DNA of 54,181 nucleotides from Cytophagales bacterium (GTDB lineage: Bacteria; Bacteroidota; Bacteroidia; Cytophagales; Microscillaceae). The stretch is from positions 1-54,181 of the forward strand of contig JAAFIN010000005.1 in NCBI GenBank assembly GCA_013297825.1, written 5' to 3'. Shown here in pieces: positions 2,378 to 47,005 of this stretch (position 1 is its first letter; each line of letters begins with the position of its first letter). The notes under the pieces were generated by a model. It worked only from the letters and a program-made list of their open reading frames with translations. It was not told the DNA's origin and ran no database searches. The position numbers were made by a program, and so were the translations under genes.

Positions 2378-2932
2378 ATGAAAAAACATCTTTTATTTTT
2401 CGTATTTATATACCTCTTTCTCCCTTTTTTGGGGTTAGGGGGCTTTTTATTTGCCCAAAAAAAATTAACTGTAACAGAATCAAAAATTGGTTTTGTGATA
2501 AAAAATGCAGGTTTTAATGTAAATGGCACTTTTTCAGGCTTTGAGGCGAATATTGAAGTGGATAAACAAGGCAATCCTTCGCTGATAGAGGCTTCTGTCC
2601 AAACCAATACCGTTAATACCAACAATAATGCAAGAGATAGGCATTTGAAAAAAGATGATTATTTTGATGCAGAAAAATACCCAAAAATTGAAATGAAAGC
2701 CAAAAAATTCAATTATATAGGCAAAAATCCAAAAACAGGCGAATATGATTATAAAGGCACTTTTGACCTTACCATAAAAGGCATTACCAAAACTTTTGAA
2801 ATTCCTTTTACTTTTTCAGGAACAGTTTTTAAAAGTGAATTTGTGATAAATAGACGTGATTTTGGAGTGGGTAGTGGAAGTTTGATTTTGGCTAATAATG
2901 TGAAAATGATTTTAATGATAAATGTTAAATAA
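2378..2932 (+). CDS. YceI family periplasmic lipid-binding protein
   Basis: 184 residues with a signal peptide ending FAQ near residue 26. The mature part follows the YceI lipocalin-like barrel: an opening ESKIGFVIKN strand, then ARDRHLKKDDYFDAEKYP, and a late IKGITKTFEIPFTF strand. YceI proteins bind polyisoprenoids in the periplasm. The family call is strong and the ligand is inferred. An oddity is that bases 2420-2445, inside the signal-peptide hydrophobic core, are a degenerate copy of the C-rich intergenic repeat also found at 33312-33336 and 9701-9724. Part of the signal peptide (around LPFLGLGGFL) is therefore repeat-derived. Confidence 0.9.
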   Translation: MKKHLLFFVFIYLFLPFLGLGGFLFAQKKLTVTESKIGFVIKNAGFNVNGTFSGFEANIEVDKQGNPSLIEASVQTNTVNTNNNARDRHLKKDDYFDAEKYPKIEMKAKKFNYIGKNPKTGEYDYKGTFDLTIKGITKTFEIPFTFSGTVFKSEFVINRRDFGVGSGSLILANNVKMILMINVK

Positions 2933-2935
2933 TTA

Positions 2936-3090
2936 AGAATTGGGAATTAGGAATTAGGAATGAAACAGCCAAATACAAAAACAGACAGATTCTTTCAGAA
3001 TGACACATTTATTTATTAAACCTTGAACTTTAAACCTTGAACTTTAAACCTTGAATTTTAAACCTTTAACTTTTTAAACCTTAAACTTTT
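2936..3090. repeat. Heptad mosaic: family A (purine sense), junction, core, family C (pyrimidine sense)
   Basis: GAATTAGGAATTAGG heptads begin 4 bases after the YceI stop and meet the junction AATGAAACAGCC (2959-2970). The core contains GATTCTTTCAGAATGACA (about 2988-3005), whose reverse complement recurs near 16245. A pyrimidine-sense family C array (about 3018-3090) then leads into the next start codon at 3105. Confidence 0.8.
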
Positions 3091-3104
3091 TAAACCTTTT
3101 TTTA

Positions 3105-3674
3105 ATGAAAACTTTATCCCAAAAAACCGAAACTTTATTAAATGAATTGCATCAATTAGTAGAAAAACTTTCTGATGAATATTTTGTAAAACAAATTCCT
3201 GAATTGCATTATGCAAGTATAGGACAACATTTGAGGCATATTCTGGAGTTTTTTCAGTGCTTAATTCAAAGCCAAGAAACCCAAAAATTGGATTATGATG
3301 CCCGCAAACGTAACCTTTTGATAGAAAATAATCGTTTGGTATGTTTGGAAGTTATCCAAGAAATTTTGGAAAATATTGCATTTGAAAATATACATCTCAC
3401 ATTGTTGCAAAGCTATAATGTGGGTGAAATAAGCGAAAAAACTGAAATTCCAAGCAATTATTTTAGAGAATGGGCATACAATTTGGAACATACTATCCAT
3501 CACCAAGCCCTTATCAAAGTAGGTATTGCATTACTCGCACCAAATATAGAAATTGCAGAAAATTTTGGGGTGGCTGATGCAACTATCAATTTTAAAAATC
3601 AACAAAAAAAACAAATACAACCTAAAAACGAAACCAAAAACGAAAATGTGTACGCTCACATATCTGCCCAATAA
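3105..3674 (+). CDS. DinB-like four-helix-bundle protein
   Basis: 189 residues, mostly helical. Histidines at positions 42 and 45 (SIGQHLRHILEFF) and a later histidine cluster in NLEHTIHHQALI are placed as in the DinB/YfiT metal-binding superfamily, where three histidines hold a divalent metal. The last 30 or so residues are Lys/Asn/Gln-rich and look disordered. This gene overlaps the following NRDE gene by 29 bases in another frame, so the two are probably translationally coupled. Substrate and reaction are unknown; bacillithiol or mycothiol transferases belong to this superfamily, but nothing here shows that activity. Confidence 0.7.
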   Translation: MKTLSQKTETLLNELHQLVEKLSDEYFVKQIPELHYASIGQHLRHILEFFQCLIQSQETQKLDYDARKRNLLIENNRLVCLEVIQEILENIAFENIHLTLLQSYNVGEISEKTEIPSNYFREWAYNLEHTIHHQALIKVGIALLAPNIEIAENFGVADATINFKNQQKKQIQPKNETKNENVYAHISAQ

Positions 3675-4368
3675 CGAAGGAAAAAACTATATTTTTACCT
3701 CCAATCGTGATGAATTTATTGGTCGCCTTGATGCTTTTGCTCCTCAAATGTATGAAATTTCAGGAAAAAAGATTTTTTGCCCTGTAGATGCACAGGCACA
3801 AGGCACGTGGATAGGGGTCAATGAAAACCAAACTTTTGTTTGTTTGTTGAATGGAGCTTTTGAGGCACATATTCGCCAGCAAAATTATCGCAAAAGTAGA
3901 GGTGCGATTGTCAAAGAAATTTTGTTGTATGAAGGTGATATTTGGGAATATTTAGAAAATTATGATTTTTTGGATATAGAACCTTTTACGTTGGTGGTGA
4001 GAGAAATTAACAACTTTTTTGAAATGCGTTGGGACGGAAAAGACAAGTTTTTTGAAATGTTAAATCCACTTTTGCCTCATATTTGGTCATCTGCTACGCT
4101 TTATCACCAACAAAAACGAGATATTAGACAATTTTGGTTTTATGAATGGTTGTTAAAACAAGAAAATAATTATACCAAAGAAAATATTTTAAAATTGCAA
4201 TTTGATAATGAAAAAGGCGAAATTGATACAAATTTTAATGTAAATATTTTGAAATATCAAGTAAAAACCGTAAGTATTACAAGTATTGAAAAAATAAATG
4301 AAACCTTTGAAATTGATTATTTTGATTTGAAAAATAAAACATCTGAAACTAACTCTTGGAGGGTTTAA
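3646..4368 (+). CDS. NRDE family (TANGO2-like) protein
   Basis: 240 residues from the ATG at 3646, which gives the canonical N-terminus MCTLTYLP with Cys2 exposed after Met removal, as in the Ntn-hydrolase-like NRDE family. A longer reading from 3553 only adds residues overlapping the DinB-like gene. The hallmark TSNRDE motif is present at about residues 18-23, followed by DAQAQGTWIGVN. The biochemical function of TANGO2/NRDE proteins is not settled; heme and lipid roles have been proposed. An oddity is that the last codons (SWRV and the stop) lie inside a GGAGGG-family palindrome (4351-4384), so the C-terminus may have been rewritten by repeat insertion. Confidence 0.85.
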   Translation: MCTLTYLPNNEGKNYIFTSNRDEFIGRLDAFAPQMYEISGKKIFCPVDAQAQGTWIGVNENQTFVCLLNGAFEAHIRQQNYRKSRGAIVKEILLYEGDIWEYLENYDFLDIEPFTLVVREINNFFEMRWDGKDKFFEMLNPLLPHIWSSATLYHQQKRDIRQFWFYEWLLKQENNYTKENILKLQFDNEKGEIDTNFNVNILKYQVKTVSITSIEKINETFEIDYFDLKNKTSETNSWRV

Positions 4369-4384
4369 AAACCTCCAAGAGTTT
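4351..4384. repeat. GGAGGG-family palindrome overlapping the NRDE stop
   Basis: AACTCTTGGAGG and its reverse complement flank a 10-base loop. The left arm encodes the last residues and stop of the NRDE gene, and the right arm lies in the 5' leader of the next gene. It can act as terminator or attenuator. Confidence 0.7.
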
Positions 4385-4400
4385 TGTAATATATAAACTT

Positions 4401-6575
4401 ATGCAAAATATTATTTGGATTTTATTGGTTTTTGTGGGAATAACTTTTTCAGGTTGCAATTCTGAATTTTCACGTGCCAATAAAGGTGTTGCAATGATAA
4501 ATGTAGAACATATCAAAAATGGCACAAAGGTAGAATTAAGTGGTGAATGGGAATTTTATTGGAAAAAATTATTAACCCCTGTGGATTTTTTGGACAAAAA
4601 AAAACGTGATGATGTTCAATGCACCAGAAGTGCAAGGTCTTGGACAGTGTTACAAAATCCCCAAAAACAACATTATCCAGCGTATGGATATGCCACTTAT
4701 CGCCTCAAAATGCAATTAAGTGATACAATTTCTACATTAGGATTTGCTATTCCCAAAATATGGTCAGCAAATAAAATTTGGATAAATGGAAAATTGGTAT
4801 CACAAAGAGGGAAAATTGCAGAAAAATTGGAAGATTATGAAAATGAAATGTTGGAAAACCTCATAAAATTTGACCTTGAAAAAAACTCCAAAAGCATTGA
4901 AATCATTGTCCAAGTCGCCAATTATGATATTTTTATTGCAGGACTTATTCAAAATTTTTTTGTAGGAGATTATAAAAATCTTTCCAAAAACAAAAGCCTT
5001 TCCAACGTGATTGATATTGCGTGGTTAGGATTTTTGTATTTTATGGTAATTTATCATATTATTTTGTGGATTTTTCATAAAGACAAAAGTACGTTGCTTT
5101 TTGGTGCAATTTGCCTCATTATTGCTACGAGAATTTTGGTTTTTGGCGAACATTATTTGTACCAATACCTCAAAGAAAGCAATAATTTGGGTTATGATGT
5201 ACAAAGCAAAATGTATTTTATTACAAGTTTTTTGTTGGTGCCTGTTGCATTGATGTATGTAGAAACGCTTTATAGCAAATATGCTAATAAAAGAATAATC
5301 AATGGCATTTTTGTAATTTTGGCAGGATATTGTATTTTTATTTTTGTTACACCGCCTCGTATTTTTACCCAAACCATCAATATTTTTGAAATAATTTCTT
5401 TAATTGCCCAATTATATTTGGTTTATATATTGATTTTAGCTAATTTTTTTAAAATAAAAGAAAAAGATGATAATAAAATAAAAGACAAAAATATCTTTTC
5501 TGATGCACTAATGCAGTTATTAGCGATTATTTTTATGGTAATTGCGAGTATCAATGACGCTCTGCACGCAGAAGAAATCAATCTTTTGGGTTTTGTGGAA
5601 CTTGTACCTACTGCTTTTGCGATTTTGATTGCTTTGCAAATCATCATTATTGCACGCAGATTTTCGCAAGCATTTACAGAAGTGGAAGAACTTTCTATAA
5701 ATTTGGAAAAAAGAGTTGAGGCACGCACACACGAATTGCAAGAGGCTAATGAACAAATAAAAATCCAAAAAATAGCAGTAGAAGAACGTAATAAACACAT
5801 CACAGACAGTATTTTGTACGCTGAACGCATACAAAAAGCGATTTTGCCACTGCACGAACATATTGCAGAATATTTCAAAGATTTTTTTATTTTGTTTGAG
5901 CCTCGTGATATTGTGTCAGGTGATTTTTATTATTTTGAAGAAATTAACCAAAAAATCATTATTGCTTCTGTGGATTGCACAGGACACGGTATTCCTGGTG
6001 CTTTGATGAGTATGCTTGGAAAAGATATTTTGGATAATATTGTTTTGGAAAAACAAATTACTGAAAGTGATAAAATCCTCAATGAACTGCATAAAGGTAT
6101 TCGCAACACTTTAAAACAGCACGAAGGAACGAATAAAGATGGTATGGATATTACATTGCTTGTGATTGACAAAGAAAATAAATTTATATCATTTTCAGGT
6201 GCAAAAAACCCTTTGATTTATGTCCAAAATGGCGAACTTACAGAAATAAAAGCCAATAGATTTTCAATAGGAGGGGAACAACAAGAAAAAGAACGCATTT
6301 TTGACAAACATATTATTCCTTTTTCTGCATTACAGAAAGATAATATGTTTTATATGTTTTCTGATGGTTATCAAGACCAATTTGGCGGAAACCAAAACAA
6401 AAAATTTATGATAAGCAATATGAAAAAACTTTTTTTGGAAATTTATACAAAAAATCCACAAGAACAACATGAAATTCTGCACAATAATATCAAAAAATGG
6501 ATGAAAGAAGGCAATGAAAAACAAATAGACGATATTTTGATAATGGGTGTGAAAATAATGATGAATGTTCAATGA
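4401..6575 (+). CDS. 7TMR-DISM receptor with C-terminal SpoIIE-type PP2C phosphatase
   Basis: 724 residues from the ATG at 4401; the 15 residues in front of it are palindrome-derived and lack a signal. The N-terminus is a lipoprotein-like signal (FSGC). Next come a 7TMR-DISMED2-type extracellular sensor (about residues 40-190), seven membrane helices (about 200-410), a coiled coil (about 420-475) and a SpoIIE/PP2C domain. Metal-binding aspartates are visible at D508 (SGDFYYF), D525 (VDCTGHG) and D655 (SDGYQDQ), so the phosphatase should be active. Such proteins dephosphorylate Ser/Thr anti-sigma-factor antagonists, often STAS proteins; a STAS-like gene lies at 37740-38147 but is not linked. 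The stop codon falls within a family B heptad array. Confidence 0.9.
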   Translation: MQNIIWILLVFVGITFSGCNSEFSRANKGVAMINVEHIKNGTKVELSGEWEFYWKKLLTPVDFLDKKKRDDVQCTRSARSWTVLQNPQKQHYPAYGYATYRLKMQLSDTISTLGFAIPKIWSANKIWINGKLVSQRGKIAEKLEDYENEMLENLIKFDLEKNSKSIEIIVQVANYDIFIAGLIQNFFVGDYKNLSKNKSLSNVIDIAWLGFLYFMVIYHIILWIFHKDKSTLLFGAICLIIATRILVFGEHYLYQYLKESNNLGYDVQSKMYFITSFLLVPVALMYVETLYSKYANKRIINGIFVILAGYCIFIFVTPPRIFTQTINIFEIISLIAQLYLVYILILANFFKIKEKDDNKIKDKNIFSDALMQLLAIIFMVIASINDALHAEEINLLGFVELVPTAFAILIALQIIIIARRFSQAFTEVEELSINLEKRVEARTHELQEANEQIKIQKIAVEERNKHITDSILYAERIQKAILPLHEHIAEYFKDFFILFEPRDIVSGDFYYFEEINQKIIIASVDCTGHGIPGALMSMLGKDILDNIVLEKQITESDKILNELHKGIRNTLKQHEGTNKDGMDITLLVIDKENKFISFSGAKNPLIYVQNGELTEIKANRFSIGGEQQEKERIFDKHIIPFSALQKDNMFYMFSDGYQDQFGGNQNKKFMISNMKKLFLEIYTKNPQEQHEILHNNIKKWMKEGNEKQIDDILIMGVKIMMNVQ

Positions 6576-6674
6576 TAAATGATGAATGAAACAGCCAAAA
6601 AAAGCTGAAAATCTTAGATTTTCAGCTTTTTTTGCTGTTCCATTCCTAATTCCTAATTCCTAATTCTTAATTCT
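6575..6674. terminator. Bidirectional terminator inside a heptad inverted repeat
   Basis: Convergent spacer. Family B purine-sense heptads and AATGAAACAGCC (6586-6597) are followed by the stem AAAGCTGAAAATC (6601-6613), loop TTA and complement (6617-6629) with T tracts on both strands. Then come GCTGTTCCATT (6634-6644) and pyrimidine-sense family A heptads to 6674. The AACAGC..GCTGTT words extend the terminator stem, so the repeat itself forms the outer helix. Confidence 0.85.
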
Positions 6675-9105: not shown

Positions 9106-9969
9106 TTACTTGCAATCTCTCACGCACACACCTTTTGCATTGATACCAAACATTTTATCATCTTTTTTGACATCAGCTATGCCTTTGTGAAAACTTGTGC
9201 CATAACTATATTGTGCAGGAACAACCACATTACCTTTCATATCCACATAACCAATATTTTTGCCTAATTTTATACGTGCAATTCCCTCGTGATACACATC
9301 TAAAATATCGCAAATGTGTTCGCCTTTTTGGTTGATATAAAAAGTTTCGCCATCAATTAGGCGAGCTTTTGCAAGTCCATTGATAAATTTATCCACATAT
9401 CTATATTTCAAAGGCACTACTTCTGTACCTTCTTTGTTGATAAAACCAACTTTATCCCTAATTCTCACACGTGCATATTCTTCAATAAAATCCTCTACAA
9501 AATCATATTTTGGCGAAACAATTTCGTGTCCTTTGGCATCTACAAGCCCCATTTTGCCCTCTGATTTGGTGGTTGCTACACCTCTGTGATAAGTGCCTAT
9601 TTTTTCATAAGTAGCTTTTTTGGTAATTTCTTTTTTAGGTTCTTCTTTTTTCAATTCTGTTTTAATTTCTTTCTTAGGATTTTCATTTTGGGTATTTGTT
9701 CCCTCTTTGGGGGTTAGGGGACTTGGGCTTTTCTCCTCCTTTGAGGTCTGTGTGGCTTGGTTTTCAGGCACATCAAGCGTATTATGAGCTTCTTGTGCAT
9801 TTTCTTTGTCAGCTTGTGAAAGCGTGTCAAGTGTCCTTTTTATAGGTTTTTGTGTATTTTCGGTTGATTTTTGCATTTCTACGTGATTATCTTTTTCATC
9901 TTGTTTTTTCTCACAATTACAAAATAATATTTGTATTAAAAGAATTATAATAAAATATATTTTTTTCAT
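9106..9969 (-). CDS. WG-repeat lipoprotein
   Basis: 287 residues. The signal ends LFCNC, a relaxed lipobox near residue 20. Residues about 25-125 are a low-complexity Lys/Glu/Thr/Pro linker. From about residue 128 there are five degenerate WG (KWG) repeats of about 33 residues with the pattern G-(F/Y/L)-(I/V)-(N/D)-xxG. WG-repeat proteins are common at Bacteroidota surfaces, and their ligands are mostly unknown. An oddity is that bases 9701-9724 are a copy of the C-rich intergenic repeat read in frame, encoding SPLTPKEG in the linker. A larger relative lies at 38325-39500. Confidence 0.8.
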   Translation of the reverse strand: MKKIYFIIILLIQILFCNCEKKQDEKDNHVEMQKSTENTQKPIKRTLDTLSQADKENAQEAHNTLDVPENQATQTSKEEKSPSPLTPKEGTNTQNENPKKEIKTELKKEEPKKEITKKATYEKIGTYHRGVATTKSEGKMGLVDAKGHEIVSPKYDFVEDFIEEYARVRIRDKVGFINKEGTEVVPLKYRYVDKFINGLAKARLIDGETFYINQKGEHICDILDVYHEGIARIKLGKNIGYVDMKGNVVVPAQYSYGTSFHKGIADVKKDDKMFGINAKGVCVRDCK

Positions 9970-15751: not shown

Positions 15752-16141
15752 TCAAAGTCCTACACAATCACACAATTCTGCCACAAGACTTTCCCAAAGT
15801 TCTTTGAGTTCTTTTTCGTTGGTCATTTCAGAATAGTCAATCACACGCAGAAAACTTGTATTGGTAAGTTCGCTTAATTGTATGCGAAACTCAATATAAG
15901 GTGGATTTTCTTGTTCTTTTCGGTTATTATCCAAAAACTCGTATTTGATGTGGTGATTTGTCCTAATGTGTGTAACAGTCGCAAAATGTTCTGCATTATC
16001 CCAAAAAAAATTGTAGATTTTGTTATCTTCTAAGATAACTTTTTGAGCAAACCATTCTTCCAAATTTTTGGGATTAAGCAAATAAGGAAATATTATTTTT
16101 GGCGAAATATTTAGCTCAAATTCTTGTGTGTATTTTAGCAT
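15752..16141 (-). CDS. START-like (SRPBCC fold) domain protein
   Basis: 129 residues from the ATG at 16141. An in-frame TTG nine bases earlier lies inside a family C heptad array and is rejected. The sequence has the single-domain START-like pattern of Bacteroidota: YTQEFELNISPKIIFPYLLNPKNLEEWFA at the start, central antiparallel strands and a long C-terminal helix (ELKELWESLVAELC). The fold makes a hydrophobic ligand pocket, and the ligand is unknown. It is monocistronic and convergent with the sugar transferase. Confidence 0.8.
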   Translation of the reverse strand: MLKYTQEFELNISPKIIFPYLLNPKNLEEWFAQKVILEDNKIYNFFWDNAEHFATVTHIRTNHHIKYEFLDNNRKEQENPPYIEFRIQLSELTNTSFLRVIDYSEMTNEKELKELWESLVAELCDCVGL

Positions 16142-16551
16142 AAAGTTCAAAGTTTAAGGTTCAAAGTTTAAGGTTCAAAAGTTCAAAGTTCAAGGTTTAA
16201 AGTTTAAGGTTCAAAAGTTCAAGGTTTAAAGTTCAAAAATGTGTCATTCTGAAAGAATCTGGCTGTTTGGCTGTTTTTGATGTGTATCTCTGTTATCTTT
16301 TCTTTTTGCTAATTTAGAGATTATTTTAGAAAAACTATTTTTTTAGGTTAATTATTTTTCTGACACCTTTCTCCTGACATCTGATTCCTGACTACTTTGT
16401 GTTTGAAATGTTATTTTAAAATGAATTTCTAAAAAATTTGGCTTTTTTGTGAAAAAATTTAGCATAAATATTTTTTTTTATGTAAAAGTGTTTTATTTTT
16501 GTGCAAAAATTAAAATTTTGTTCCCAAAAAATATTAATACATAAAAAAACA
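16142..16551. repeat. Divergent spacer: long family C array and family D array
   Basis: About 100 bases of purine-sense family C heptads (16142-16240) abut the minus-strand start codon. A fragment reading TGTCATTCTGAAAGAATC (about 16243-16260) is the complement of one near 2988-3005, followed by two GGCTGTT words. Pyrimidine-sense family D heptads (about 16366-16395) lie before the small ORF. TATTTTTG at 16494-16501 is a possible -7 box. Confidence 0.75.
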
Positions 16552-32300: not shown

Positions 32301-32481
32301 TGAAGAAAAACATTTCCCCAAAATTTTTGATATGTTTTACCGAGCAACTGACCAAAATACAGGTTCAGGACTTGGACTTTATATCGTAAAAGAAGCAGTT
32401 GATACCCTCAAAGGCAGTATTCAACTTACTTCTACCTACCGAAAAGGTACAACTTTTGTGGTGAAAATTCCAAGAAATTAA
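29344..32481 (+). CDS. 7TMR-DISM receptor histidine kinase with PAS domains
   Basis: 1045 residues. Order: signal peptide (about 1-28), DISMED2 sensor (about 35-165), seven membrane helices (about 190-390), coiled coil, three PAS-like domains (about 425-550, 555-675 and 695-825), a HisKA dimerisation helix with phospho-acceptor His836 in RASHDLRAPLSS, then HATPase_c with the N box (NLISNAF), DNGQGI and GSGLGLYIV. No receiver domain is fused. A DISM receptor senses an external ligand, possibly a carbohydrate, and the kinase phosphorylates a separate response regulator, conceivably the orphan at 21458, but there is no adjacency to support that. Confidence 0.92.
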   Translation: MFSKCLKNTIYFFLYFLICNVYLFGNILFGQDTIKLNNNGKIHEIGHQTAFLEDENNKLVFEDVEKKPFQKLKGRVFEHKITSSPVWFRMIVHNATNEPREWILDFQKSEIQEAHLYYRDSEGKKHDFVSGLHYYPSEKAHSSVGICFPLEFPPKSTRILYVRLVNHSFLTYIPTLTPQKLYEKNLYHFYLSMGVFYGLFLVVFFYNIINYFNTQKVFYLYFVGFMMSFMVLTGGYDGIIFNIFPQIAIITGGFQTLVFAGLFCITFSKFLEKYLEPSEKLFQRSIKGFFMLGFGYLFLGLLRLTFGFRLLMFGLPFAGFVFYQVLVFIWKNKSYVERLFFFVAFGVLFFSICVSILANEHFIPVSYVTRSALHWGFVGFVFSILLGLQYQIREKDIKIRAQELINQEFIKNKNIELQQEVDARTQELAQKELNIRGVIESTHDLIYALDKDFNILVFNSAARNNAKTLYNIKLEPGQNYLAIMPSDIQKLMEKSLLEVLNKKKPVFTQQQATMHGRKIYRDIFLNPIFDDYNQIVGLSVFSKDVTQSSHTRKELQYSQIFLQTIFDNSPDALFLISQNNYVVEKCNETAIKMFEANSAHDLLGNKGGIFHYNNLSEEENQLILKSIKQTGHWEGEYYYTTQKGNHFWGNIILTTFELQNKAYQLARITDITQKKRIEQDLKNINHEIMSKQANLTALLENNDFAIWLVDDKGQLVDGNFLYKKLYFDCYGYESPKSESLAFRFGRAEKIAWTHRFISVLQGNEGVYLEKRKIKGKIHHFSIKAFPVKQNNKIIGASFFAQDISKNIEADRKLKRRNKSLKKVNLELDKFVYRASHDLRAPLSSMLGLVKLLELEDLSPKNTEYLSFIKKSINKLDNFIAQIVDYSRNSRIAIAPELVDLEEMLQKTFENLQFMPQASRIQQEVNIQLPNKKMVVDVFRLEIILNNLISNAFRYANTSQEVPFVSVNIFLENNYLVFEIKDNGQGIEEKHFPKIFDMFYRATDQNTGSGLGLYIVKEAVDTLKGSIQLTSTYRKGTTFVVKIPRN

Positions 32482-32813
32482 AATTCAAGGTTCAAAAAGT
32501 TCAAGGTTCAAAAAGTTTAAGGTTCAAAGTTTAAGGTTCAAAAAGTTTAAGGTTCAAAAAGTTCAAGGTTCAAAGTTCAAGGTTCAAAAAGTTCAAGGTT
32601 CAAAAAGTTCAAGGTTCAAAGTTTAAAAAAAAAATTCTGCTAAAAATTTTGGAAACCCTAATTTAGGCTGTTGGCTGTTTCATTTACCATTCACCATTAA
32701 ATTTGGCTGTTTCATTTACCATTCACAATTTACCATTCACAATTAAATTTGGCTGTTTCATTTATCATTCAACATTTATCATTCATCATTAAAAAAAATA
32801 ATTTTCATTTTTT
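32482..32813. repeat. Largest heptad array: family C, then triple junction/family B units
   Basis: About 145 bases of purine-sense family C heptads (32482-32626) begin at the kinase stop codon. After a 45-base gap come three successive units, each GGCTGTTTCATT plus CATTTAC-type heptads (junctions at 32673, 32704 and 32751), ending near 32790. All three junctions point the same way. Confidence 0.85.
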
Positions 32814-32885: not shown

Positions 32886-33305
32886 ATGAAAATTAGCACA
32901 TTTCAACTTTTATCTTGGGATTATGACATACAACATTTTTTGATGTTAATCAATGTAATAATGTTGTGTTTGTGTATTTTTTTACCTGTATCATTATTTT
33001 ATCTGGCTTTATACCAAATAATTTTTGGATTTTATCAATTAATGATAAGTAGTAATGTATTGCTTACAAGCAAAATATTATCAGAACAAATAAAATTTTT
33101 TAGAAAACTTCACGTTGCAAGTGCGTGGATATATGTTTTATTTGTGGTATTTTTTTATGCTTATATTTCAAATGATTTTTTAGAAAAAATCGTATTTTTT
33201 GTCATTCCTCAGATATTTGTAACATTATATTATCTCCTCACACGCCAGGAACTCAAATCACGCAAAAGATATTTTGAAATGCGTCCAATGGTGTTTGTGA
33301 AGTAA
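32886..33305 (+). CDS. Small integral membrane protein, unknown function
   Basis: 139 residues with four probable membrane helices (about 15-35, 38-60, 75-97 and 100-120). The C-terminal tail LTRQELKSRKRYFEMRPMVFVK is basic and cytosolic by the positive-inside rule. It has no recognised signature. A large C-rich stem-loop separates it from the GbsR-type gene 118 bases later, so they are probably not simply co-transcribed. Confidence 0.65.
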   Translation: MKISTFQLLSWDYDIQHFLMLINVIMLCLCIFLPVSLFYLALYQIIFGFYQLMISSNVLLTSKILSEQIKFFRKLHVASAWIYVLFVVFFYAYISNDFLEKIVFFVIPQIFVTLYYLLTRQELKSRKRYFEMRPMVFVK

Positions 33306-33311
33306 AAAAAG

Positions 33312-33420
33312 AAGCCCCCTAACCCCCAAAGGGGAACTTTTAATAAGTTTTTTTAATCTAAAAATTCTTTTAGATTTATTTTTTTATTCGCTCCCCCTTT
33401 GGGGGCTGGGGGGCTTCTTT
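33312..33420. terminator. Large C-rich/G-rich inverted repeat
   Basis: AAGCCCCCTAACCCCCAAAG (from 33312) pairs with a G-rich arm (33390-33417) reading CTTTGGGGGCTGGGGGG. The inner part, TAATCTAAAA..TTTTAGATTA, makes its own hairpin. The right arm ends in CTTCTTTTTT directly at the GbsR-type start codon. It is the GC-richest DNA in the window, and related copies sit inside two genes (2420-2445 and 9701-9724). Confidence 0.8.
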
Positions 33421-34912: not shown

Positions 34913-35205
34913 AAAAAAAAGTTCAAAAGGCTTGAAAGTTCAAAAAAGAGGTTCAAAAGATTAAAATGCAAAAAAATCAAAAAAGGTTCAAAAAACAATA
35001 TTTGATTTTTGAACCTTAAACTTTTGAACTTTGAACTTTTAAATCTTTGAACTTTTTAAACCTGTATTGTTTTTTGGCTGTTTCATTCAACATTTATCAT
35101 TCAACATTGAATTTGGCTGTTTCATTCAACATTTATCATTTATCATTCAACATTGAATTTGGCTGTTTCATTCAACATTTAACATTTATCATTCAACATT
35201 AAATT
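34913..35205. repeat. Heptad mosaic: inverted family C arrays and three family B units
   Basis: Purine-sense family C (about 34918-34962) and pyrimidine-sense family C (about 35008-35063) face each other and can form a long hairpin. Three direct copies of GGCTGTTTCATT plus CAACATTTATCATT heptads follow (junctions at 35076, 35114 and 35161), ending at the DUF349 stop. Confidence 0.85.
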
Positions 35206-36558
35206 TTAGTATCTTCTCGCAGGTTTTAGGCTTCTGAGCGTATCCTCCATAGTTTTGAGAATAGCTTTTTTGATAACCACTTTTCTTTTTTGGATTAGAA
35301 GATTAGTAGAAAGTTGACGAGTTTCACGAGTCATTATAGGCTCGCTTGCTTGCACTTTGGCAAAATTGGCTTCACCAATAAGGATTTCGCTTTCATCTCT
35401 GCGAATAAGCTCACGCATAAAACTTGTTTTGATGCGAAGTTGGTCTTCTTGTGGTTTTTGTTCTATGTCAGTGTATTTGCGTCTTACTACACGCATCAAA
35501 TAGCTAAATTCAAAGATTTTATCACAAGCAGTTCTAAATTTCTCGCCTGTTTCGTTTTCAAGTTGGCGAAATACATTGCCTAATTTTTTCCATTCTACCA
35601 AAAGTTCTTTGGCACGTTCGGTTTTATCGTTGTCATCAACATCAAAATTAACTAATTTTTCAGCTTCTTCTAAGTAAGCATTTTGGTATTTGTCTTTGAT
35701 TTCTTGGGCAGAAAGTTCAGGGTTTTCACCTTTGATAAGTTTAAAATTTTTGTACCTTGTAAAGAAATAATCGTTGATTTGTTTGAATTTCTCCCAAAGT
35801 TCGGTAGCTTTTTTGTGCGGAACTTTTCCGCCTGTTTTCCAATATTGTTGCAATTCTCTAAATTCTGCAAATATTTCATCAAAATCATCAGAATTGCGTA
35901 TTTCTTCTGCTCTTGCAATGATACTGCGGTAGTAATTGATGCGTTCTTTGGCTTGTTTTGATTTTTCTTTGATGACATATTTTCTATTTTCAAAGAAAGT
36001 TTGATAATATTCTTCAAAAGAATTTTCAATATCTCTCTGCATATCCACCACCACTGCACCTGTTTTAATCCACTTTTGTTTGATTTCTTTCATTTGGTCA
36101 GAAAACGCAAGAATTGTAACAGGGTCAGCTTCGCCTTGTTGGTCAAGGATTGATTTTGCCTCTGCCAAAAGGGCTTGTTTTATCTCCAAATTTTTTACAC
36201 GATTTACAGCAACACCACCGTTGAGTTCTGCAATCATCTCATCAAGAGAAGTTTCCAACGCAATAAAATCACCCAATCCATTGTAATCGTTAAGCGATTC
36301 TTTGAGGTGAATGAGTTTCATAAGGAAAGTACCTTTATTTACCGCTTCTTCAATGGCTTTGTTAAGTTCTTTTACTTTGTCAGTAAGTTGTTCAAATCTT
36401 TTTTCAAAATATTCAAGGGAGGCTTGCGGTGTGGTTTTTACAATACCGATTTTTCGGTCATTTTTGTCAGAATATGCTTTCAGAAAAACATCATTTTCAG
36501 CAGTTACATAACCAAAGGCATTTTCAGCAATTTTTGAAGAATTATTAGAGGAAGTCAT
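35206..36558 (-). CDS. DUF349 repeat protein
   Basis: 450 residues, almost entirely helical, with three or so copies of the DUF349 three-helix unit (about residues 165-235, 240-305 and 310-380). Typical strings are IKQKWIKTGAV, ELQQYWKTGGKVPHKKATELWEKFKQINDYFF and LVEWKKLGNVF. The N-terminal 50 residues are less conserved. DUF349 proteins are widespread in Bacteroidota and Actinobacteria, are cytosolic, and have no established function. It is monocistronic. Confidence 0.88.
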   Translation of the reverse strand: MTSSNNSSKIAENAFGYVTAENDVFLKAYSDKNDRKIGIVKTTPQASLEYFEKRFEQLTDKVKELNKAIEEAVNKGTFLMKLIHLKESLNDYNGLGDFIALETSLDEMIAELNGGVAVNRVKNLEIKQALLAEAKSILDQQGEADPVTILAFSDQMKEIKQKWIKTGAVVVDMQRDIENSFEEYYQTFFENRKYVIKEKSKQAKERINYYRSIIARAEEIRNSDDFDEIFAEFRELQQYWKTGGKVPHKKATELWEKFKQINDYFFTRYKNFKLIKGENPELSAQEIKDKYQNAYLEEAEKLVNFDVDDNDKTERAKELLVEWKKLGNVFRQLENETGEKFRTACDKIFEFSYLMRVVRRKYTDIEQKPQEDQLRIKTSFMRELIRRDESEILIGEANFAKVQASEPIMTRETRQLSTNLLIQKRKVVIKKAILKTMEDTLRSLKPARRY

Positions 36559-41777: not shown

Positions 41778-41889
41778 AAAAAATAATGAAATAACAAGCC
41801 AACAGAAACTTTTGGAGGATTTCAAACCCTCCAAAAGTTAAAAATCGCAAAAAAAACCACATCAAAAACTTGATTTTAAATTCCCTTTT
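41778..41889. repeat. LRR-unit boundary repeat, GGAGG palindrome and leader
   Basis: Bases 41778-41803 (ATAATGAAATAACAAGCC) match the 3' ends of both LRR genes (44378-44398 and 46989-47015). A GGAGG palindrome (41807-41839) and about 48 bases of leader follow. The same order, almost base for base, precedes the second LRR gene at 44399-44485, so this is the start of a tandemly duplicated unit. Confidence 0.8.
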
Positions 41890-44394
41890 ATGAAAAAATC
41901 CTTTCCTTTCTACATTATTTTTCTAAATATTTTGTTGGTATTGTTTTCTGCAATGCTTGTAATGTGTGTTTTTGTGGGCGTATTGGTGTTTGTGCAGGAG
42001 GAAAAAAAAGAAGAAAATACAAAAAATGATGAAATGCAGAGAGAAATAGACATAAAATTTACATCAAAAAAAATTTGGGGTAGAGAAGAAAAAGGCAAAA
42101 AATATAGTATTGAGGATAATTTAAAAGAAATTAAGCAAGAAGATATAGAAATATTTGTATTGCAGAATAATATTTATTTAACCAAAAATAAAAAATTTAA
42201 AATTTCTGATATTTCAAATTTCAAAAACCTTAAAAGACTTGAAATATATGGATTTCCATTAGAAGATATTGTTCCTCATATCAAAAAACTTCCAAAACTT
42301 ATTTCCATTGTTGTTGGTGGTCAGGGTCATCAATTAGATATTCCCAAAGAATTATTTGAATTGACTCAATTAAAATATTTGTATCTTGGAGATTTGGAAT
42401 TGTTAGCACTTCCCACAGATATTGGAAAACTCAAAAACCTTGTTCATTTGGAATTGAATAATAATGAAATTATAAAAATTCCTAAAGAAATACAGGAATT
42501 AAAAAAATTAGAATACCTAAATATTTCAAAAAATGGCATCAAAGAATTACCTGAAGAAATTGGAAATTTGAAGAATTTAAAATATATTTATTTCTCAAAT
42601 AATAAAATTAAAACATTGCCTAAAAGCATTGAAAACTTGAAAAATATAAAAAATGCAGATTTTGAAAATAATAAAATCCAAGAATTGCCCAAAGAAATCG
42701 GAAATTGGACAAAAATAACAAGTGTAAATTTTGAAAATAATAAAATTCAAACATTGCCCAAAGAAATTGGAAATTGGACAAAAATACAAGGCATTAATTT
42801 TTCGAATAATAAAATCCAAGAATTACCCAAAGAAATTGGAAATTGGATAAAAATAAAAAGAATAAATTTTTCGAATAATAAAATCCAAGAATTACCCAAA
42901 GAAATAGAAAATTGGAAAGAAATTATGATGTTTTCTGTGGCAAATAATCAACTTATTGCAATTCCAAAAGAAATTGAAATTTTGAAAAATTTTCGTGAGT
43001 TAAATTTTGAAAACAATCAACTTACTACAATTCCAAAAGAAATTGAAAAAATAGAAAATTTGGAAAATCTCAATCTTTCTAACAATAAAATTAGAATTTT
43101 ACCAAATGAAATTTGTAATTTGAAATATTTGAAAAGATTAACATTAAAAAAAAATAAACTTAAAAATCTACCAAAAAACTTTTCAAAACTTAAAAGTTTA
43201 GAAAAATTGGATTTTGAAGATAATCAATTTGATGAAATTCCAGATGAAGTTACAAAACTTAAAATGCTTGAAGAACTTGATTTTTCTAAAAACAACCTCA
43301 AAAATTTCCCGTTTTCATCTGATAGTGCCTTTTATAATTTGCAGAAATTATATCTTTCACATAATAAATTTATCACAATACCAAATAAATTGTATGGATT
43401 ATTACATCTAAAAAACTTAGATATTTCACACAATCAAATCACAAATATTCAAGATATTTGGAAATTAAAATCAATAACATCTGTGAATATTTCACACAAT
43501 CAAATCACAAAATTACCACAAGGTTTTAAAAAAGAATGTAACCGTTTTGATATTTCATATAACCAAATTAGAGAAATTCCTAACGTTTTTTATAATATTT
43601 CATTTGATACATTTTTTAGCGAGAAAATTATTATTTTGGATAATAATTTTATAGAAAATCTTCCTGAATCGTTAAAAACTGAAAATATACAACGAATTTC
43701 ATTAGAAAATAATCCACTCAAAAATATTCCTTTTGACACCATTATTAACAGTGAAAAACTAACTTCGCCAAAATATTTAGATTTTTGGATAAAACAACCA
43801 AATTATGAGTTTGCAATGATTGTTAGGGGAAGGATAATTTTTCCCTCATCTTCATACAAAAAAAGATTTTTTGATACAATTTATTTTAATCCAAATGGAA
43901 AATTAATTTACCAGCATTTTCTCAAAAATCATAAAAGATTAGCAGAAATAAATTTTTATGAAAATTTTGCACTAATTAAACATCGTCATACATATACAAC
44001 AAGAAATAAATATTTCAATCAAATTGGTAAAATAAAACATTTAATTGAAATTGATTTGTATGGTGCTTTTTGGCATATTCAAAACAAAGACTTTATTACT
44101 GCAAAAGACATTTTAGAAAAAATAAAAACGCAAATGAAAGTTTTTGAGCCAACTACTCAACAACTTGATATAATTTCTTTGATACAAGAGCATGAAGAAA
44201 ATCCAAAATCAAAAAGGTTTTATTCAAAAATTATGGAAATACCTATTTTGAAAAAAATCAACTCAGAAAAATCAAAAGAAGAACAAATAACTTTATTAAA
44301 TATAGAAACATTTGATTGGGAAATTTTAAATACTTTACACGAATTGTATGGTTTTTATGAAGACATCAAAATCTTAGAAAAAATGATGAAATAA
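41890..44394 (+). CDS. Membrane-anchored LRR protein, tandem copy 1
   Basis: 834 residues. A single N-terminal membrane helix (about 8-32) anchors it; no cleavage site is evident. After a variable charged linker (33-75), about 22 leucine-rich repeats of 23 residues run to about residue 620, with the pattern LPKEIGNWxxIxxINFxNNKIQE. A conserved C-terminal domain (about 640-834) carries FNPNGKLIYQ, IDLYGAFWHIQNKDFITAK and FYEDIKILEKMMK. Repeats 8-12 are nearly identical to each other, showing recent internal expansion. It is probably a protein-binding receptor facing the periplasm, or the cytosol if the helix is reversed. Confidence 0.85.
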   Translation: MKKSFPFYIIFLNILLVLFSAMLVMCVFVGVLVFVQEEKKEENTKNDEMQREIDIKFTSKKIWGREEKGKKYSIEDNLKEIKQEDIEIFVLQNNIYLTKNKKFKISDISNFKNLKRLEIYGFPLEDIVPHIKKLPKLISIVVGGQGHQLDIPKELFELTQLKYLYLGDLELLALPTDIGKLKNLVHLELNNNEIIKIPKEIQELKKLEYLNISKNGIKELPEEIGNLKNLKYIYFSNNKIKTLPKSIENLKNIKNADFENNKIQELPKEIGNWTKITSVNFENNKIQTLPKEIGNWTKIQGINFSNNKIQELPKEIGNWIKIKRINFSNNKIQELPKEIENWKEIMMFSVANNQLIAIPKEIEILKNFRELNFENNQLTTIPKEIEKIENLENLNLSNNKIRILPNEICNLKYLKRLTLKKNKLKNLPKNFSKLKSLEKLDFEDNQFDEIPDEVTKLKMLEELDFSKNNLKNFPFSSDSAFYNLQKLYLSHNKFITIPNKLYGLLHLKNLDISHNQITNIQDIWKLKSITSVNISHNQITKLPQGFKKECNRFDISYNQIREIPNVFYNISFDTFFSEKIIILDNNFIENLPESLKTENIQRISLENNPLKNIPFDTIINSEKLTSPKYLDFWIKQPNYEFAMIVRGRIIFPSSSYKKRFFDTIYFNPNGKLIYQHFLKNHKRLAEINFYENFALIKHRHTYTTRNKYFNQIGKIKHLIEIDLYGAFWHIQNKDFITAKDILEKIKTQMKVFEPTTQQLDIISLIQEHEENPKSKRFYSKIMEIPILKKINSEKSKEEQITLLNIETFDWEILNTLHELYGFYEDIKILEKMMK

Positions 44395-44398
44395 CAAA

Positions 44399-44485
44399 CA
44401 AAAATTTTTGGAGGATTTCAAGCCCTCCAAAAGTTAAAAATCGCAAAAAAAACCACATCAAAACCTTGATTTTAAATTCCCTTTT
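44399..44485. repeat. Second GGAGG palindrome and duplicated leader
   Basis: TTTTTGGAGG..CCTCCAAAAGTT (44404-44435) and the following leader are nearly identical to 41807-41889. It provides the terminator of copy 1 and the promoter-leader of copy 2. Confidence 0.75.
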
Positions 44486-47005
44486 ATGAAAAAATCCTTT
44501 CCTTTCTACATTATTTTTTTAAATATTTTGTTGGTATTGTTTTCTGCAATGCTTGTAATGTGTGTTTTTGTGGGTGTTTTGGTGTTTGTGCAGGAGCCAG
44601 ATTATTTTTCTGAAAGCAAAACAGAAGAAACAAAAAATAATAACACAAAATCGTATAAAAATTATGGTTATGTGGATAATGCAATCACAAAAGATACAGA
44701 ATCAGAAAAAGAATATTCAAGTGGAATGATTGATGAAACCTTAAAAATTTTTGATGATGTAAAAAGTTTTAGATTAGACCATTTTCAAAGTTCTTCATTT
44801 AGTTATTCGCTTATGGCGAAATTCAAAAATTTAAAAAGATTATATATTCATAATTGCGATATTGAAGAAATATTGCCTCACATAAAAAACCTTCCAAATC
44901 TTATTGAAATTAATTTTGATTATGCCATTCAACTTGATATTCCCAAAGAATTATTTGAATTGACACAACTCGAATATTTGAGATTTAATAACGTGGAATT
45001 GTTGGGATTGCCTGCGGAAATAAAAAACTTAAAAAATCTTGTTAGTTTGGATTTATCAGGTAATCACATAAGCAGTTTGCCTAAAGAAATAGGAGAATTA
45101 AAAAACCTTGAATTTTTAAAAATAGAAAATAATAATCTGCTTTCTTTGCCAGAAGAAATTGGAAATTTGGAGAAATTAAAAAATATTTACTTTTCAAAAA
45201 ATAAAATAAAGTTTTTGCCTAAAAGCATTGGAAACTTAAAAAACATAAAAATTGCAGAATTTGATGATAATAAAATAGAAGAATTGCCCAAAGAAATCAG
45301 AAATTGGAAAGAAGCAAGTATAATAAATTTTAATAATAATCAAATTCAAAAATTACCATACGAAATTGGAAATTGGGCAAAAGCAACATATATAAATTTT
45401 GAAAATAATAAAATCCAAGAATTACCAAATAAAATTGGGAATTGGACAAAAATAAAATATGTGAATTTTGGGAATAATCAAATCCAAAAACTACCAAAAG
45501 AAATAGAAAGTTGGAAAAAAATAGAGGAATTTTATGCAAATAATAACCAACTTACACAAATTCCAAAGGAGATTATGTATTTTGAGCATTTAGAAAAATT
45601 GGATTTTTCAAAAAATCAACTTTCACAAATTCCAAAAGGAATAGAAAAACTAAAAAAATTAGAAGATTTAAGTTTTTCTAACAATAAAATTACATTTTTA
45701 CCAAATGAAATTTGTAATTTGAGTAATTTAAAAAATCTTTCTATAGACACAAATCAACTTACATATTTACCAAAATATTTCTTTAAACTAAAAAATTTAG
45801 AAAATTTAAGCTGTAAAAATAATCAGATTTATTATGTTTCTAATGCAGTTTCTGCCCTCAAAAATCTCCAGAAACTTAATTTTTCCTACAATAAATTTGC
45901 GTATTTACCTTCCAAATTTGAAAGATTATCAAATTTGGAAGAATTAAATTTATCGCACAATGTTTTTGAAGATTTCCCAAATCAATTATATAAATTAAAA
46001 TTTTTGAGAAAATTGTATCTTTCACACAACCAAATCAAAGACATTACAAATATTTGGGATTTGAAAAAAATATATCTGCTTGATATTTCACACAATCAAA
46101 TTCAAAAATTACCTGAAAAATTTGGAAAAGAATGTATGTATTTTGATGCTTCGCACAACAAAATAAAAACGCTTTCTATATTTTATTTTAAAGATGTTTT
46201 TAAAGACCGAAATGACCCAAATATTATTTTAACTGACAATCTCATTGAAAATTTGCCTTTGGAATTAAATGATTATAATAGTTTGTATCATTTATATTTG
46301 TCAAATAATCCCATTAAAAATGTACCTTTTAATCAAAGTATCAACGACAAAAAAATTACTTCTATGGATTGGTTTTATTTTTTGAGGAATAAAAAAGTGG
46401 TTGATATAGAAGATTTAGAAATAAAACGTAAAGAAAAAATTTTCAGTTCAAGACCTGTTTTTCCTGCTGACAGATACAATAAAAAATTTGTTGATTCACT
46501 TTATTTTAATCCAAATGGAAAATTAATTTACCAGTATTTTCTCAAAAATCACCAAGTAATGCAAGAAATTGGTTTTTATGCAAAGGAAAAGTATACCAGC
46601 ATTTATCAAGGTTTTCTTTCTCAAACACAAGATTTAATAGATATTGAATTGTATGGTGCTTTTTGGCACATTCAAAACAAGGATTTTATAACTGCAAAAA
46701 ATATTTTGAAAAAAGTAAAAAAAATGTTGGCAGACTTTGAGCCTAATGGTCAAAAACCTGAAATTACATTTATGATACAAGAAAGCGAACAATATGGAGA
46801 ATCTTCTGAACAACTGTCTTCAAAAATTATGGAAATTCCCATTATCAAAAAAATGTATCTCGCACAACTCGAAATAAAAAAAAATAATCCAAACGCTCAA
46901 CAAGAAGAAAAAAACAAAATTTCAAATCATAGCGTTATGTCTTTTTTGTATGAATTATTTGTTTTTTATGAAGACATCAAAACCTTAGAAAAAATGATGA
47001 AATAA
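44486..47005 (+). CDS. Membrane-anchored LRR protein, tandem copy 2
   Basis: 839 residues, same architecture as copy 1. Residues 1-37, including the membrane helix, are identical to copy 1, even at most silent positions, then the linker is unrelated for about 60 residues. The LRR region follows the same 23-residue LPxEIxNWxxxxxINFxNNxIQ pattern but is clearly diverged, and the C-terminal domain (FNPNGKLIYQYFLKNH, IELYGAFWHIQNKDFITAK, FYEDIKTLEKMMK) is conserved. The pair therefore has fixed ends and a variable middle, as in variable binding proteins. No immune function is demonstrated. Confidence 0.85.
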   Translation: MKKSFPFYIIFLNILLVLFSAMLVMCVFVGVLVFVQEPDYFSESKTEETKNNNTKSYKNYGYVDNAITKDTESEKEYSSGMIDETLKIFDDVKSFRLDHFQSSSFSYSLMAKFKNLKRLYIHNCDIEEILPHIKNLPNLIEINFDYAIQLDIPKELFELTQLEYLRFNNVELLGLPAEIKNLKNLVSLDLSGNHISSLPKEIGELKNLEFLKIENNNLLSLPEEIGNLEKLKNIYFSKNKIKFLPKSIGNLKNIKIAEFDDNKIEELPKEIRNWKEASIINFNNNQIQKLPYEIGNWAKATYINFENNKIQELPNKIGNWTKIKYVNFGNNQIQKLPKEIESWKKIEEFYANNNQLTQIPKEIMYFEHLEKLDFSKNQLSQIPKGIEKLKKLEDLSFSNNKITFLPNEICNLSNLKNLSIDTNQLTYLPKYFFKLKNLENLSCKNNQIYYVSNAVSALKNLQKLNFSYNKFAYLPSKFERLSNLEELNLSHNVFEDFPNQLYKLKFLRKLYLSHNQIKDITNIWDLKKIYLLDISHNQIQKLPEKFGKECMYFDASHNKIKTLSIFYFKDVFKDRNDPNIILTDNLIENLPLELNDYNSLYHLYLSNNPIKNVPFNQSINDKKITSMDWFYFLRNKKVVDIEDLEIKRKEKIFSSRPVFPADRYNKKFVDSLYFNPNGKLIYQYFLKNHQVMQEIGFYAKEKYTSIYQGFLSQTQDLIDIELYGAFWHIQNKDFITAKNILKKVKKMLADFEPNGQKPEITFMIQESEQYGESSEQLSSKIMEIPIIKKMYLAQLEIKKNNPNAQQEEKNKISNHSVMSFLYELFVFYEDIKTLEKMMK

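Follow-up and report, generated by a model that had tools for sequence, protein, structure and literature searches.

A short palindromic repeat of two sister types, resembling REP and REPIN sequences and mostly arranged head-to-head, appears to have been amplified in the lineage of this Cytophagales bacterium, with tolerated copies retained and the reading frame of those within genes set by their context; we give this joint reading a probability of about 0.8. The copy number, uniformity and pairing of the repeat can be read directly from the genome, and the amplification would have proceeded by copying or transposition, perhaps recently. The repeat would land widely, and purifying selection would retain the least harmful copies, that is, those between genes, often beside gene ends, and those in frame within tolerant protein segments. 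In the latter, the landing site may decide which frame survives: linkers and tails would keep hydrophilic readings of the SPLTPKGG type, and signal peptides the hydrophobic readings of the antisense strand.

The window (the whole stretch of 54,181 nucleotides that was analysed) contains the copies listed in Table 1. A preliminary description of this DNA had placed the repeat in frame in the linker of a WG-repeat lipoprotein and had counted a second in-frame copy in the window, and both placements were borne out. The 20-mer AGTCCCCTAACCCCCAAAGA matches exactly at 9704-9723 on the minus strand; with three mismatches allowed, it was found at three places in the window as compared to none in 100 shuffles. 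Around the repeat copy, the WG ORF reads ...SPSPLTPKEGTNTQ... in frame, the linker stretch of the protein also being given as ...KSPSPLTPKEGTNTQ.... Judged by eye from its N-terminus (...ILFCNC), the WG-repeat protein is a putative lipoprotein, and the copy at 2420-2445 falls within the apparent signal peptide of the YceI-like protein. The WG-gene copy alone folds no better than its own shuffles, pointing to decay; it is a decayed singleton in the linker that is now part of the protein, and we found no evidence that it serves a function itself. For a genome in which 82 of 271 examined copies are genic, finding two genic copies within 54 kb is unremarkable. The A and B copies at 33312 and 33391 constitute an intergenic inverted pair (33312-33416) that forms a single hairpin.

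Table 1. Repeat copies in the window, the genes that hold them, and tracts of a separate repeat class.
Feature	Position	Strand	Description
Type A repeat copy	9699..9724	(-)	2 mismatches to the 26-nt consensus; in-frame reading (P)SPLTPKEG
WG-repeat protein gene, 287 aa	9106..9969	(-)	Pfam WG_beta_rep PF14903, E 1.2e-29; repeat copy at ~residue 82, in a low-complexity linker
Type A repeat copy	2420..2445	(-)	4 mismatches over 26 nt; opposite-strand reading LPFLGLGG
YceI-like protein gene, 184 aa	2378..2932	(+)	PF04264, E 4.7e-31; repeat copy in the N-terminal hydrophobic segment ahead of FAQ
Type A repeat copy	33312..33336	(+)	Minus one G; directly past the stop of ORF 32886-33305
Type B repeat copy	33391..33416	(-)	Inverted mate of the 33312 copy; directly ahead of ATG 33424
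ATTTAACATTCATC/AATTCCTAATTC-type tracts	2285-2330, 6557-6602, 32703-32802, 35113-35212, others		Short near-tandem units, intergenic

Type A has the 26-nt palindromic consensus AAGCCCCCTAACCCCCAAAGGGGGAA and type B, its sister type, the consensus AAGCCCCCCARCCCCCRAAGGGGGAG; all six frames are open in type B, and type A has stops in two. In the genome, a draft of 362 contigs, the 16-mer core of type A has 296 matches at no more than one mismatch, versus none for its reversed control. Exact cores number 314 (182 of the A 16-mer and 132 of B, the two patterns being mutually exclusive), and the exact A 23-mer occurs 154 times. When 102 copies were aligned, the information fell to about background beyond a unit of ~26-31 nt (positions 0 to ~30), the left flank being mildly A-rich. 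Our main scan was gapless, tolerated at most 4 mismatches in 22 nt, and covered 161 stretches (857,284 bases including overlap), most of which had been picked for holding copies; it gave 271 unique copies (122 B and 149 A). It replaced an earlier fuzzy scan allowing indels (116 copies, 31 of them genic), which had not called the window pair a doublet. We also surveyed 57 genomes, namely that of the window and 56 relatives (none of them congeneric), for the A core only: each relative had between 0 and 7 exact cores, and only four had any (1, 1, 4 and 7). Among 295 genomes sampled from the class, 18, the window's genome included, contained a looser motif, and because it numbers 180 here versus 17 and 16 in the next highest, the repeat is best regarded as a thinly scattered motif that expanded in this lineage. 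Neither the SPLTPKG peptide nor the DNA words of the repeat were found described in the literature that we searched.

The copies are strongly ordered with respect to one another. Among the 74 neighbour pairs in the 271-copy set lying less than 200 nt apart, 61 are head-to-head and 13 tandem, and none is tail-to-tail (p = 5e-25 against one in four). When the scan of a smaller set was relaxed to 5 mismatches and distances below 300 nt, a threshold at which the reversed control matches too, it yielded 41 pairs, of which 35 were head-to-head, 5 tandem and a single one tail-to-tail. The 61 head-to-head pairs comprise 43 AB, 9 AA and 9 BB, so that AB pairs exceed expectation (p = 0.002), and 12 head-to-head pairs lie whole inside a single gene. 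Gaps within pairs range from 9 to 173 nt, and no common spacer sequence was seen by eye when 35 spacers were compared. The two pairs that were folded as DNA, the 33312/33391 pair of the window and a pair in the OstA gene, gave hairpins with z of -4.9 and -4.6, respectively. This organization is that of REPINs, which are described in the available part of PMC3116915 as head-to-head doublets with a variable spacer that form hairpins, REPs being described there as extragenic: the short palindromic unit, high copy number, inverted doublets, variable spacer and hairpins are all shared. Unlike what would be expected of REPINs as that part presents them, no flanking RAYT was found, the two sister types are paired with each other above expectation, and doublets are no more conserved than singlets (mean mismatches 0.30 in 122 copies vs 0.36 in 149; p = 0.74). 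As to the extragenic placement of REPs, 189 of the 271 copies lie outside predicted genes and 82 inside.

Given this architecture of short palindromes, inverted pairs and hairpins, one might suppose that the A/B repeat is a true REPIN family moved in trans by the RAYT of the genome, which does possess a RAYT-family gene whose frame is open (L034; NCBIfam NF047646, 83.1 bits against a cut-off of 80) and a shorter RAYT-like ORF (L033; 67.9 bits, below the RAYT cut-off). We consider this unlikely. The genome has four Y1_Tnp genes, the other two scoring one over and one just under the IS200 cut-off, and none of the four loci (2.2-3.3 kb) contains the A/B repeat, whereas REPINs flank their RAYT. 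Neither a GTAG nor a CGTC tag is present in the A/B consensus, and the palindrome on the flank of the L034 RAYT is another one, of GTAG type, GTAGCACACACTTTTAGTGTGTG, which has 62 genome matches at up to one mismatch and, by reading of the list, 13 head-to-head pairs. Pairing of the A/B repeat with a RAYT was therefore rejected, the four Y1_Tnp loci being without the repeat and the one RAYT over the cut-off having its own. L034 and its GTAG palindromes look like a classic RAYT-REPIN system; our method thus does detect a RAYT with its own repeat, and the A/B repeat is not that repeat. The two families also behave differently toward genes, as none of 17 GTAG-type copies in the examined stretches is genic versus 82 of 271 for the A/B repeat (p = 0.004).

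The RAYT gene occupies L034:255-929 (G000:C325), with the cluster of GTAG-tagged palindromes at ~939-1290. A recurrent neighbouring transposase was likewise looked for and discarded, none being evident in the 12 largest clusters of 444 neighbour proteins, with one sequence judged in each. An exception among these clusters comprises three short proteins recalling an Rpn/PDDEXK nuclease tail, for which Pfam gave no family up to E 0.1, and one host gene (L012) has a weak PDDEXK_2 "transposase" match.

Although 75% of the scanned sequence is coding, only 82 of the 271 copies are genic (in 59 distinct predicted genes) and 189 lie outside, and we therefore conclude that the repeat avoids genes strongly but incompletely. 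Seven stretches totalling 60.6 kb, selected independently of the repeat, contained 5 copies, 2 of them genic. The gene calls are our own simple predictions, and in some cases the true start may be downstream of an N-terminal match. Type B is genic more often than type A (45 of 122 vs 37 of 149; p = 0.034), and genic copies carry a mean of 0.51 mismatches vs 0.25 for intergenic ones (p = 0.07).

Between genes, copies crowd toward gene ends. No more than 15 nt separates 54 of the 189 intergenic copies from the 3' end of a gene, as compared to ~5% of placements, and such an excess, together with the strong folding of two pairs, could mean that selection keeps the copies for a function in RNA or DNA, as terminators, mRNA stabilisers or protein-binding sites, the genic copies being by-products. 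Yet 40 of the 189 lie equally close to a 5' end, also versus ~5% of placements. Co-directional, divergent and convergent gaps hold 113, 33 and 22 copies (21 more are at stretch edges), about in proportion to their 90,717, 35,741 and 24,515 intergenic bases; because the spread of copies thus matches that of intergenic sequence, with no preference for convergent gaps, a terminator role is not favoured. The genic share of 82 in 271 and the relatives with few or no A cores speak against selected elements as well, and we regard this explanation as improbable.

The frames and positions of the genic copies accord with the reading that we prefer, in which tolerated copies are retained. Thirty of the 37 genic A copies are read in the SPLTPKGG frame, a few of them with changed residues (p = 1e-12 against one in four), the others giving PPLGVRGL (4), FPLWGLGG (2) and KPPNPQRG (1). 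The 45 genic B copies are spread over two sense frames (7 and 8 copies) and three antisense frames (8, 11 and 11). Sense copies supply SPLTPKGG-type linkers and tails, and antisense copies (LPLWGLGG, PPLGVRGL) are concentrated in N-termini: 21 of 36 antisense copies fall within the first 60 residues vs 4 of 46 sense copies (p = 1.7e-6), and FAQ follows within ~15 residues downstream in 12 of the 36 and in none of the 46. Copies in the FPLWGLGG/LPLWGLGG frame are in the first 60 residues in 12 of 13 cases and, by our reading, sit in hydrophobic signal peptides, 7 of the 13 being accepted by an automatic signal-peptide rule. Over all genic copies, a hydrophobicity cut called 9 of the 36 antisense and none of the 46 sense copies, and a second rule 10 and none; because both rules are stricter than reading by eye, we used position within 60 residues as the main count. 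At the other end of proteins, 11 of the 82 genic copies lie within 16 residues of the C-terminus, all of them sense, and in 6 of these 11 the stop falls within one residue of the repeat's peptide.

Pfam searches with 20 of the 59 host proteins (best stretches only, tallied by eye) placed the copy outside the domain match in 16 and inside it in 2 (UvrD_C and a weak PDDEXK_2 match); one protein had no domain, and in the remaining one, Sortilin, the position was ambiguous. One gene of the CusA/CzcA family of RND efflux pumps, at L193:2981-6148(-), contains three in-frame copies, two of them paired in an internal loop and the third at the C-terminus, and this pump is ~22 residues longer than ZneA around the pair.

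According to the preliminary description, the repeat invades coding DNA and persists there wherever translation turns it into a Pro-rich segment. This is supported by the 37 of 82 genic copies in the SPLTPKGG/SPPTPKGG frame, by the DNA that encodes the peptide and by the WG orthologs (both below), but it is incomplete, since other frames persist too, the antisense ones as hydrophobic N-terminal segments, and since 11 of the 82 are C-terminal; that the repeat spreads is something we infer from the sequence. It had also proposed looking genome-wide for such peptides coded by the DNA word and comparing them with orthologs. In 630 predicted proteins (202,249 aa), S[PL][LP]TP[KE][GER] occurs 30 times, each time encoded by DNA that differs from the repeat at no more than 3 of 21 nt, and we conclude from this use of the repeat's DNA word that the SPLTPKGG-type peptide exists because of the DNA repeat. 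The recurrence of one octapeptide across many unrelated proteins might otherwise have suggested a selected protein motif, such as a ligand or a processing site, that evolved in many linkers. This codon identity led us to reject the idea, which we hold to be scarcely credible: the repeat's DNA is also translated in other frames and from the opposite strand, 189 of 271 copies lie outside predicted genes, and none of seven WG orthologs carries the peptide. Nor did these seven reveal the peptide encoded by different codons, the finding that the preliminary description had named as its refutation. It is also doubtful that the repeat is itself tuned to be harmless, or even useful, in translation, with one strand giving a linker peptide and the other a signal-peptide core, an idea suggested by the six open frames of type B and its more frequent placement in genes; if that were true, a mobile 26-mer would be a portable protein module, usable in both directions, by which secretion signals, linkers and C-termini are remodelled proteome-wide.

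No empty site was seen at the nucleotide level in the genomes searched, which include no other member of the genus, so that insertion was inferred from protein alignments. In the WG family, where the SPLTPKEG-type peptide is absent from all seven orthologs, 6 of the 7 have the linker within the aligned ORF, and linker variability precludes a clean gap. Of the YceI orthologs, 9 of the 10 aligned have a gap of 4-5 residues at the copy, between the start and FAQ, the tenth (L251) having none; this alignment comprises 10 of 14 ortholog loci, leaving out L242 (the best match, with an internal stop) and L253-L255. In OstA/LptD, the repeat pair encodes 28 residues after the signal peptide, a full counterpart of which was found in none of 14 orthologs; three of these (L142, L147 and L148) have lysine-/proline-rich extensions of their own at this place, and their genomes contain no exact A core. 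For Sortilin-Vps10, 10 of 14 ortholog rows span the region, each of them shorter at this place; the remaining rows are cut. UvrD was tried as a clean empty site and rejected, as 13 of its 14 orthologs span a variable loop with no clean gap.

Several dispersed repeats are natural comparisons. Cyanobacterial small dispersed repeats are very short and seemingly mobile, and the Rickettsia palindromic elements (RPEs) belong to another phylum. In the accessible part of a review (PMC10969869), RPEs are elements of ~150 bp found in frame in many unrelated genes; the A/B repeat is likewise palindromic and in frame in many unrelated genes (82 copies in 59 predicted genes), but its unit is 26 nt and its pairs are ~60-225 nt. 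For GTAG- and CGTC-tagged REPs, the sections of PMC3733652 that we saw report REPs and REP dimers inside genes, in-frame REPs, ORF stop codons supplied by REPs, and intragenic copies at the N- and C-terminal ends of ORFs. The A/B repeat has neither tag, and sorting of frames between linkers and signal peptides was not found in those sections. Among the ERIC/RU elements of enterobacteria, RU forms part of a signal peptide, although these units, as given in the portion of PMC2759123 available, are 103-168 bp long and concern few loci, as compared to a 26-nt unit with 12 antisense copies just before FAQ. In-frame REPs, RPEs and ERIC/RU are thus already published, and the A/B repeat is a strongly frame-sorted variant rather than a new category. 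What we did not find described in the literature seen, which was partial, is context-dependent frame sorting at this scale, A/B pairing unaccompanied by a RAYT, and the difference from the resident GTAG family.

The repeat amounts to a natural saturation experiment, in which one DNA word placed in dozens of proteins indicates which segments and peptide chemistries tolerate insertion. The GTAG-type and A/B populations, with their opposite coding behaviour, can moreover be compared within one cell. For annotation, segments resembling SPLTPKGG or LPLWGLGG in such genomes should be taken as the mark of a DNA repeat and not of protein homology.

The window holds other repeats as well. Short near-tandem units (ATTTAACATTCATC-like and AATTCCTAATTC-like; Table 1) make up intergenic tracts, each ending in GGCTGTTTCATT or its complement, and the pattern GGCTGTT[TC]CATT has 15 matches over both strands. 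Arrays of AAGTTCAAGGTTCAAA-like units, also intergenic (16128-16237, 32464-32642 and 3016-3118), make up a second low-complexity family common to several gene gaps. Another dispersed palindrome, CTTTTGGAGGGTTT..AAACCCTCCAAAAG-like, has four copies in the window, at 458-495, 4350-4387, 41806-41843 and 44402-44439. Finally, the adjacent ORFs of 834 and 839 aa at 41801-47005, which contain internal repeats of 69 nt and share 97% identity over their 200-nt leaders, are probably a tandem duplication.
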